DNA of 15,907 nucleotides from Pseudomonadota bacterium. GTDB taxonomy: Bacteria > Pseudomonadota > Gammaproteobacteria > Xanthomonadales > Rhodanobacteraceae. Location: assembly GCA_018241165.1 (NCBI GenBank), contig JAFEEK010000018.1, forward strand, positions 1 through 15,907. The letters run 5' to 3'. The position numbers and the translations under genes are program-made. This document shows positions 1,561 to 7,954 of the stretch, in pieces; the stretch's first letter is position 1, and every line of letters starts with the position of its first letter. The notes under the pieces were generated by a model. It was not told where the DNA came from, did no database searches, and worked only from the letters and a program-made list of their open reading frames with translations.

Positions 1561-2346
1561 ATGAAAGCCGCCACCGCCCACAATGAGCAACCCGTGGCGC
1601 AGCATCTGAACCTGCTCAGTTGCAACATCCTTGCCGGTGGCAGCATGGCGCGCTACCGCGATTACGTGACCCAGAGCTGGAAGCATGTTCTGCCGGCGCG
1701 CTCCAAGCGCGGCAATCTCGACCGCTTTGCCGGATTGCTCGCCGATTTCGATGTCGTCGGATTGCAGGAAGCCGACGCCGGTTCCTTGCGCTCGGGTTTC
1801 GTCAACCAGACCCAATACCTTGCCGAAGCGGCGCATTTCCCGTACTGGAGCCACCAGCCCAACCGCAATGTGGCGCGCTTTGCGGCATCCGCGAACGGAC
1901 TGCTCACGCGCATCGCGCCGGACGAGGTGCGCGACTATCCCTTGCCCGGCCGCATACCCGGACGTGGCGCACTCTGGGCGCGTTTCGGCACCGATGACGC
2001 GGCGCTGGTCGTCGTGATCGCCCACCTGTCGCTCGGCCCGGGGGCGCGCCACCGGCAATTCGATTTCCTTGCCGGGCTGATTGGCGATCAAAAGAACGTG
2101 GTCTTGATGGGGGATCTGAATTGCCCCGTGCATAGCCGCGAGCTGACGCCGCTGTTCGATCGCACTGCACTGGCGCCGCCACGGCAGACCGCACCGGCGA
2201 CGTTTCCAAGCTGGCGGCCGCGCCGTGCGATCGACCATATCCTGACCTCGTCGAACATCGAGATCGAACGCCTGTGGACACTGCCGCATCCGGTATCCGA
2301 TCACCTGCCGCTGGCGGCGAGGATCAAGTTGCCCAATGCACGTTGA
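1561..2346 (+). CDS. Endonuclease/exonuclease/phosphatase (EEP) family hydrolase
   Basis: 261 residues with all hallmark motifs of the metal-dependent DNase I/ExoIII-like phosphoesterase fold in order: LLSCNILAGG (Asn22), VVGLQEAD (metal ligand Glu70), a catalytic-type His155 in IAHLSLG, GDLN 184-187, IDHI 224-227 and SDHLP 246-250. There is no signal peptide, so it is probably cytoplasmic. The substrate may be nucleic acid, phosphoinositide-like lipid or another phosphodiester and cannot be told from these motifs. The ATG at 1561 has no clear ribosome binding site; an in-frame GTG at 1594 (residue 12) just before the conserved strand is an alternative start. It follows the lipoprotein DsbA gene by 58 nt and probably belongs to the same transcription unit, although nothing links it functionally to disulfide chemistry. 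Confidence 0.85.
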   Translation: MKAATAHNEQPVAQHLNLLSCNILAGGSMARYRDYVTQSWKHVLPARSKRGNLDRFAGLLADFDVVGLQEADAGSLRSGFVNQTQYLAEAAHFPYWSHQPNRNVARFAASANGLLTRIAPDEVRDYPLPGRIPGRGALWARFGTDDAALVVVIAHLSLGPGARHRQFDFLAGLIGDQKNVVLMGDLNCPVHSRELTPLFDRTALAPPRQTAPATFPSWRPRRAIDHILTSSNIEIERLWTLPHPVSDHLPLAARIKLPNAR

Positions 2347-2371
2347 CATTCCACGATGTTTAATGTACTAT
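2343..2371 (+). promoter_or_regulatory. Sigma-70-like promoter P1 upstream of rpoH
   Basis: A perfect -35 TTGACA (2343-2348) is followed after 17 bp by TACTAT (2366-2371), 4 of 6 matches to TATAAT. The -35 overlaps the TGA stop of the upstream hydrolase gene. Start of transcription would be near 2378, only about 8 nt before the GCAA-loop hairpin at 2386. That is too close for the hairpin to end this transcript efficiently, so the hairpin would instead form its 5' end. Confidence 0.5.
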
Positions 2372-2385
2372 CTGGTGCATTAATC

Positions 2386-2404
2386 ACGGCCGCAAGGCCG
2401 TTTT
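2386..2404 (+). terminator. Short GC hairpin with GCAA tetraloop and T tract
   Basis: ACGGCC (2386-2391) pairs with GGCCGT (2396-2401) across a GCAA loop and runs into TTT. It is best read as the intrinsic terminator of the dsbA/EEP transcription unit. It has the same design as the stronger terminator after rpoH (GCAA loop, GGCC-rich stem). The T tract is short (TTTT then G), so termination may be partial and some readthrough into rpoH is likely. Confidence 0.6.
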
Positions 2405-2432
2405 GAACTTCAGGGCTTGTTTAGCACTCAAA
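2403..2432 (+). promoter_or_regulatory. Candidate sigma-E (RpoE)-type promoter of rpoH
   Basis: TTGAACTT (2403-2410) contains the GAACTT -35 element recognised by RpoE-type sigma factors. TCAAA (2428-2432) after a 17-bp spacer resembles the TCTRA -10 element. A sigma-E-dependent rpoH promoter is well known in E. coli, so the position makes biological sense. The -10 overlaps the end of the left CIRCE arm, so HrcA binding would be expected to block it. The spacer is at the long end and the -10 has one mismatch, hence moderate confidence. Confidence 0.45.
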
Positions 2433-2447
2433 CCGAGCGAGTGCTAA
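2421..2447 (+). promoter_or_regulatory. CIRCE operator (HrcA binding site) in front of rpoH
   Basis: TTAGCACTC (2421-2429), a 9-bp spacer, then GAGTGCTAA (2439-2447): a perfect match to the CIRCE consensus TTAGCACTC-N9-GAGTGCTAA in both arms and spacer length. CIRCE is the operator of the heat shock repressor HrcA, usually in front of groESL or hrcA-grpE-dnaK. Here it ends 25 bp before the rpoH start codon, so the target is almost certainly rpoH. Its right arm overlaps an extended -10 element and its left arm overlaps a candidate sigma-E -10, so repressor and RNA polymerase should exclude each other. hrcA itself is not in the window. Confidence 0.95.
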
Positions 2448-2450
2448 AAT
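2421..2450 (+). promoter_or_regulatory. Extended -10 promoter P2 embedded in the CIRCE
   Basis: TGC followed by TAAAAT (2442-2450) forms an extended -10 element, with the hexamer matching TATAAT at 5 of 6 positions. TTAGCA (2421-2426) at an 18-bp spacing is a 4 of 6 match for the -35. Both lie inside or against the CIRCE arms. Predicted transcription start is near 2457, giving a leader of only about 16 nt that contains the GGGAGG ribosome binding site. Confidence 0.5.
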
Positions 2451-2472
2451 TGCGTTCATACGGGAGGTTTCA

Positions 2473-3336
<864 letters not shown>

Positions 3337-7318: not shown

Positions 7319-7954
7319 ATGATGGCAAGCCAGCTTACTTTCACGGTCATCATGCATACAATCGCCTTGACGGCCACGGCCAACTGGAATCCCGCGCGCG
7401 TGGATGCGGAAAACACCGGCGAGCGCACGCTCGATGCATTCCTCAAGAGCGTGGAACGCCGCGCCTTGCGCATGGCCGAACTCGCCACGTCCAGCCGCGA
7501 CGATGCGCTGGACCTGGTCCAGGACGCGATGTTCGGCTTCGCGCGCCATTATGCCGCCAAGCCGCAGTCGGATTGGGCGCCCTTGTTCTACCGCGTGCTC
7601 GACAGCCGCCTGAACGACTGGCATCGCCGTCGCAATGTACGCAGCCGCTGGCTGGCCGTGTGGACGCACAATGCTGGCGACGACGATGGCGAACGCGACG
7701 AAATCGCGCAGGCGCCCGACACCAGCGATCCCGGCCCGCTGTTGCGGTTGGCTGGCGACGAGGCCGGACACGCGCTCAACGCCGCGTTGACAATATTGCC
7801 ATTGCGCCAGCGCCAGGCATTCCTGCTGCGCGTGTGGGAAGGATTCGATGTCGCCACCACGGCGAGTACCATGCGCTGCAGTCAGGGCAGCGTGAAGACG
7901 CATCTGTCGCGCGCGCTTGCCGCGTTGCGGCGCGAGTTGGAGGATCACGCATGA
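7319..7954 (+). CDS. ECF-like RNA polymerase sigma factor
   Basis: 211 residues with two sigma domains and nothing resembling region 3. Region 2 is at about 38-106, with RDDALDLVQDAMFGFARHY aligning with the core-binding helix and a basic WHRRRNVRSRW end. Region 4 is at about 155-206, with LPLRQRQAFLLRVWEGFD and the helix-turn-helix MRCSQGSVKTHLSRAL. An acidic linker (about 118-145) joins them. Two adjacent ATGs (7319, 7322) begin the frame and a third lies at 7352; none has a clear ribosome binding site, so the first roughly 12 residues are uncertain. The stop overlaps the next start (ATGA), indicating translational coupling to the membrane protein in the anti-sigma position. It should recruit polymerase to an unknown, probably envelope-related, regulon and may drive its own operon. 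Confidence 0.88.
   Translation: MMASQLTFTVIMHTIALTATANWNPARVDAENTGERTLDAFLKSVERRALRMAELATSSRDDALDLVQDAMFGFARHYAAKPQSDWAPLFYRVLDSRLNDWHRRRNVRSRWLAVWTHNAGDDDGERDEIAQAPDTSDPGPLLRLAGDEAGHALNAALTILPLRQRQAFLLRVWEGFDVATTASTMRCSQGSVKTHLSRALAALRRELEDHA

Follow-up and report, generated by a model that had tools for sequence, protein, structure and literature searches.

The window, by which we mean the whole stretch of 15,907 nucleotides analysed here (contig C99 of an assembly of 515 contigs that is 89.55% complete), carries a gene for the heat-shock sigma factor sigma-32, preceded by the elements collected in Table 1. The gene product scores 415.7 bits against the NCBIfam equivalog model TIGR02392 (cut-off 323.1), and the nearest rpoH genes among the named genomes, at 72-76% identity, come from Xanthomonadales/Lysobacterales such as Xanthomonas, Luteimonas, Dyella and Rhodanobacter, which would place the window in this order. 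Upstream on the + strand lie two tandem genes for DsbA-like thiol:disulfide proteins (66-761 and 816-1502) and, 3' of this pair, a gene of the endonuclease/exonuclease/phosphatase family whose end just precedes the rpoH promoter region. The + strand also has an ORF at 7319-7954 whose ECF-like product shows the region 4 domain of sigma factors (Sigma70_r4_2).

Table 1. The rpoH gene and the sequence elements in front of it, with positions in the window
Feature	Position	Strand	Basis
Upstream sigma-70-type promoter, TTGACA-N17-TACTAT	2343..2371	+	promoter scan, 10/12 matches
Imperfect inverted repeat TGTAC-N6-GTACA, spanning the upstream -10	2364..2379	.	genus alignment
Small G+C-rich hairpin followed by TTTT	2386..2404	+	fold
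Sigma-E-type -35, TGAACTT (6/7 bases of GGAACTT), 10 nt ahead of CIRCE	2404..2410	+	alignment, sequence
CIRCE operator, perfect arms and 9-nt spacer	2421..2447	.	sequence match, genus conservation with variable spacer
Sigma-E-type -10, TCAAA	2428..2432	+	left arm gives TC, spacer gives AAA; spacing to the -35 is 17 nt
Housekeeping-type extended -10, TGCTAAAAT	2442..2450	+	right CIRCE arm plus AAT; promoter scan, sequence
Shine-Dalgarno-like GGGAGG	2462..2467	+	sequence
rpoH, gene for sigma-32 (287 aa)	2473..3336	+	ORF and NCBIfam model

The CIRCE operator is made of a left arm, TTAGCACTC (2421-2429), a spacer (2430-2438) and a right arm, GAGTGCTAA (2439-2447), and there is no mismatch in either arm. 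An earlier reading, made from the sequence only, had described arms and spacer alike as exact matches to the consensus; this stands for the arms and for the spacer length of 9, and falls for the spacer sequence, since the consensus gives none and length alone can be compared. The distance of 25 bp to the rpoH start codon that it had given is exactly what we measured. Within three mismatches no other CIRCE occurs across the whole window, where dinucleotide shuffles yield a mean of 0.01, and a perfect match to the 18 arm bases would be expected by chance about 6e-8 times in the window and 9e-6 times in the genome of 2.45 Mb. A chance palindrome is thereby ruled out.

Further upstream, the sigma-70-type promoter has a conserved -10 region and a less conserved -35 in the alignment of the genus loci. 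The inverted repeat that spans this -10 is perfect in several of these loci (among L113-L127), and it is possible that another regulator binds there. The small hairpin sits between this promoter and the sigma-E-like -35; it might be the terminator of the upstream gene or a leader hairpin, and the terminator scan of the window did not call it as a terminator.

Two promoter-like elements share bases with the operator itself. The genus alignment also shows GGAACTT or TGAACTT conserved 9-10 nt before CIRCE. This corresponds to the -35 consensus of sigma-E, GGAACTT, whose matching -10 would be TCnnA. Because the -35 lies at such a distance, a -10 of this form must take its TC from the end of the left arm and requires an A at position 3 of the spacer. 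At the other end of the operator, the right arm is followed at rpoH by NAT, and arm plus NAT spells TGCTAANAT, an extended -10 that follows the sigma-70 consensus TGN-TANNNT. No strict sigma-32 promoter was seen by eye at the operator in the genus alignment.

How widely is the operator kept? Sixteen genomes of the genus were searched, in which we found rpoH in 15 and groES in 13. All 15 rpoH loci (the window included) carry the operator, none with more than two mismatches; its arms are perfect in 12/15, and the spacer varies while keeping its length of 9. The absence from close relatives that would have refuted the sequence-only reading is not what we see. At groES of the same genus, CIRCE occurs in 12/13 loci with one or two mismatches each (perfect arms in 0/12); the 13th locus (L132) is cut by a contig end 5 nt before the gene and was excluded from the 38 groES CIRCE loci that serve as our comparison set. 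Across the family, at least one CIRCE with no more than two mismatches is present in 232/233 genomes, usually two, and the 30 family loci that we fetched fell at rpoH (12), at groES (17) and at neither (1). The scan of rpoH upstream regions that had been proposed was also carried to 80 named loci: CIRCE, with up to three mismatches and within 300 nt before rpoH, is found in 42 of them, betaproteobacteria and non-enteric gammaproteobacteria among them. The 38 named loci without CIRCE were kept out of this set and include 12 Enterobacterales and 6 Vibrionales loci, the orders being assigned from the genus names; two of the 38, L098 and L100, are too short to judge. These counts rule out an operator peculiar to one genome. 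In the class, the bare CIRCE core is present in 274/369 genomes; the first 30 listed core loci, from 30 genomes and chosen regardless of the -35, comprise 16 at rpoH, 9 at groES and 5 at neither gene, the last being excluded from the rpoH and groES motif counts.

Taken together, the 42 named and 16 class loci give an unselected set: 58 rpoH loci included irrespective of the -35. GGAACTT, with at most one mismatch and a gap of 8-11 nt to the operator, precedes it in 15/15 genus, 12/12 family (gap 8-10), 24/42 named and 6/16 class rpoH loci, where composition shuffles would give 0.2 cases in the 42 named loci. In the unselected set this makes 30/58, against 0/38 at groES (p 8e-9, a value that ignores relatedness). 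Of the 28 unselected loci in which the element is missing at this gap, six have a sigma-E-like promoter at another distance, and in 22 no such promoter was found near the operator; in all, a sigma-E-like promoter lies close to or across the operator in 34 of the 58 loci and is lacking in 24. We then counted an exact composite, GGAACT followed after 10 to 14 bases by GCACTC-N9-GAGTGC, in the 369 class genomes. It occurs in 70 of them, in 53 of 272 genera, and the reversed pattern that served as a control gave 0 in every genome. All 70 composites lie upstream of rpoH and on its strand, with an interval of 13 bases in 54, 14 in 14 and 12 in 2; the window itself falls outside these 70 on account of the one mismatch in its -35. 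A Dyella isolate (L036) carries the composite as well.

The A that a sigma-E -10 would need at spacer position 3 occurs together with the -35. It is present in 66/70 composites, in 14/15 genus and 11/12 family rpoH loci, and in 3/38 groES loci; within the unselected rpoH set it is found in 28/30 loci with the -35 vs 7/28 without (p 6e-8, relatedness again ignored). The extended -10 behaves differently. AT at the second and third bases after the right arm occurs in 50/58 unselected rpoH loci vs 0/38 groES loci (p 3e-19, likewise ignoring relatedness), and T at the third base in 57/58 vs 1/38. These bases are indifferent to the sigma-E -35, AT being present in 26/30 loci with it and 24/28 without, and for this reason the extended -10 looks like the general promoter and the sigma-E element like the added one. 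Nearer to the window the AT is less strict (9/15 genus, 5/12 family and 50/70 composite loci), while T at the third base is kept in 14/15, 10/12 and 66/70, respectively.

In the genome of the window, hrcA and other CIRCE sites had been named as things to look for. The gene is there, on another contig (G000:C405), with both HrcA Pfam domains, PF01628 at 206.6 bits, and in the order hrcA-grpE-dnaK, which rules out that the genome has no hrcA. As for other operators, the rpoH site is the only CIRCE within three mismatches in the assembly. It stands alone at least in part because groES is missing; the gene was not found in this incomplete assembly, and the usual groESL site is thus invisible there. 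Before hrcA (locus L002) the best CIRCE-like site has 7 mismatches, so that HrcA seems to leave its own operon uncontrolled; should sigma-32 transcribe the hrcA operon, a loop from sigma-32 through HrcA to rpoH would close. The genome also encodes rpoE (TIGR02939, 320.8 bits, cut-off 236.15) and, beside it, an RseA-domain protein (RseA_N, 51.9 bits). In the rpoE locus itself, a sigma-E-like promoter was not found with the pattern used.

Operator and repressor tend to occur together. Among 50 of the 80 named genomes, hrcA is present in 22/25 with CIRCE at rpoH vs 7/25 without it. The exceptions are three site-bearing genomes without an hrcA match and seven site-less genomes that have hrcA, three of these being myxobacterial and one Xanthomonas pisi, whose operator is changed to GCAGTC-N9-GACTGC. 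Pseudoalteromonas luteoviolacea (L062) has a perfect CIRCE before rpoH and only a weak HrcA match (E 1e-11), which we read as a divergent HrcA.

To explain these patterns we propose that the site is a true HrcA operator and that HrcA represses rpoH by sitting where transcription from two overlapping promoters would start, one of the sigma-E type and one with an extended -10. We consider this reading fairly likely, our confidence in it having been lowered slightly by the looser extended -10 of the genus and family loci compared with the wider set. Bound to its operator, HrcA would mask two -10 regions, that of sigma-E on the left arm and the extended -10 on the right arm. When HrcA activity is lost, upon heat or when GroEL is occupied by unfolded protein, as in the systems studied, both promoters would open; outer-membrane stress would then add its input through sigma-E, and the envelope signal could feed sigma-32 only when chaperone status in the cytoplasm allows it. 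A rise in GroEL would shut the gate once more, and the upstream sigma-70-type promoter could provide a basal level of rpoH. What we observe are the sequences themselves, their conservation, and hrcA, rpoE and the RseA-domain gene in the genome; from these we infer HrcA binding, repression, the use of each promoter and the feedback by GroEL. That HrcA acts on rpoH is likely the best reading of the locus, and the overlap with the sigma-E-like promoter and the extended -10 likely changes the mechanism. The sequence-only reading had placed HrcA above sigma-32. This agrees with the presence of hrcA and with the operator kept throughout the genus, but it is too narrow: because groESL of the genus also carries CIRCE, HrcA would exert its effect at both levels, instead of only above sigma-32.

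A simpler device would consist of CIRCE and the extended -10 on its right arm, a housekeeping promoter only, the TGAACTT of the window being a decayed or unused remnant of a sigma-E promoter. The AT after the right arm, as frequent without GGAACTT as with it, speaks for such a device, as does the window's own -35, one base off and at a spacing of 17. A remnant, however, would lose the conservation that we observe: the -35 is kept in every genus and family locus, at gaps of 9-10 and 8-10, and the A at spacer position 3 is retained in nearly all of them. The genome also has rpoE and an RseA-domain gene. We regard the remnant as unlikely.

In E. coli, sigma-32 is under strong post-translational control by DnaK and FtsH. 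HrcA could accordingly bind at rpoH and yet matter little, the control of sigma-32 being exerted mainly on the protein, and the textbook picture lends weight to this. So does Xylella, where hrcA rises more than 4-fold under nitrogen starvation and rpoH 2-fold too, in the account that a review gives of it (PMC11764788); as far as that account goes, the joint rise does not fit a simple strong repression in that organism. Against a minor role stand the 18 arm bases, conserved around a free spacer in every genus rpoH locus found, and the fact that, in the same genus, the groESL site is less well kept (perfect arms in 0/12 vs 12/15 at rpoH). We find a minor role for HrcA rather improbable. Much less probable still is that the repeat works mainly as an RNA hairpin, within the leader of mRNA made from the upstream sigma-70-type promoter, and thereby affects the stability or translation of rpoH mRNA. 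The promoter that this calls for is there, and the transcribed inverted repeat folds well (-16.3 kcal/mol). The arms, however, are conserved in sequence, beyond mere pairing, the site co-occurs with hrcA, and the promoter-like elements would put starts within the operator, at about 2437-2441 for sigma-E, or beyond it, at about 2456-2459 for the extended -10, leaving such transcripts without the left arm.

The repressor gene and the operator consensus are those known from groESL and dnaK operons. The promoter arrangement sets the rpoH site apart: groES operators are followed by CAA or CAG in 32/38 loci and lack GGAACTT at gap 8-11, whereas CIRCE at rpoH itself supplies promoter-like elements. 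In E. coli, the rpoH promoter P3 depends on sigma-E, and a GGAACTT-N16/17-TCnnA element before rpoH is what our locus shares with such promoters, in E. coli and Vibrio alginolyticus. By contrast, hrcA is missing from 6/6 Enterobacterales and 2/2 Vibrionales genomes searched for it, and CIRCE from their rpoH loci, while here the operator overlaps the -10. A loose sigma-E-like match precedes rpoH in 19/38 named loci without CIRCE, including 11/12 Enterobacterales; these are raw counts, uncorrected for chance. This pattern was found in 0/6 Vibrio and Photobacterium rpoH loci, even though a report on V. alginolyticus places RpoE at the rpoH promoter by ChIP (PMC4890791). The sensing that we assume for HrcA has a parallel in Campylobacter jejuni, whose HrcA is described as combining intrinsic heat sensing with stimulation of its DNA binding by GroE (PMC8533110).

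The operator alone is not new. Nor is it peculiar to the group of the window, since numerous HrcA-bearing beta- and gammaproteobacteria carry CIRCE at rpoH. A study by Permina and Gelfand of 2003, which to judge by its title treats the HrcA/CIRCE and sigma-32 regulons of beta-, gamma- and epsilonproteobacteria, may already list such sites. In Geobacter sulfurreducens, CIRCE before rpoH was predicted by Rodionov et al. in 2004 (Table 8; PMC545781): as given there, the operator is perfect and directly before rpoH (at -51), and groESL of the same genome carries one too. In that table hrcA-grpE-dnaK-dnaJ also has CIRCE, whereas there is none before hrcA here, and the part concerned says nothing of a sigma-E element. 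The arrangement is neither new nor rare; it is widespread and probably functional. For the overlap of a sigma-E promoter with CIRCE at rpoH we found no description in what the open-access literature offered, weak evidence of absence given that most subscription papers lay outside this scope; as far as that literature shows, the site is a known kind of operator and the composite of promoter and operator a new variant of it.

The textbook circuit of sigma-32 is that of E. coli, and the control genomes with an HrcA match do not include this species. If the composite works as we read it, a repressor that senses chaperonin would gate the transcription of rpoH in many proteobacteria, and sigma-E would raise sigma-32 only once HrcA lets go; two protein-folding compartments would be joined at a single element of about 45 bp. 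We envision a wider picture, to which we give an even chance: across much of the beta- and gammaproteobacteria that keep HrcA, CIRCE at rpoH would be part of the promoter, and one HrcA complex would shut both entries to sigma-32, forming an AND-NOT gate of envelope stress and chaperone status that Enterobacterales lost along with hrcA while keeping the sigma-E promoter. The frequent loose sigma-E match in Enterobacterales fits such a loss of hrcA and operator with the promoter retained, and this would be a simple route to the layout of E. coli.

In some genomes the operator itself has changed. The CIRCE core is absent from 3/3 class-sample genomes of the other family in the order of the window, which fits a changed operator like that of Xanthomonas pisi. 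CAGTC-N9-GACTG, in which both arms carry the same change and the palindrome is kept, is the rpoH operator of Lysobacteraceae NML93-0793 (L252), Xanthomonas pisi (L258) and three other loci (L037, L033 and L038). The groES sites of genomes with this operator are mixed (L253, L257). Such paired changes suggest that the specificity of HrcA has drifted in the family of the L252 and L258 genomes.
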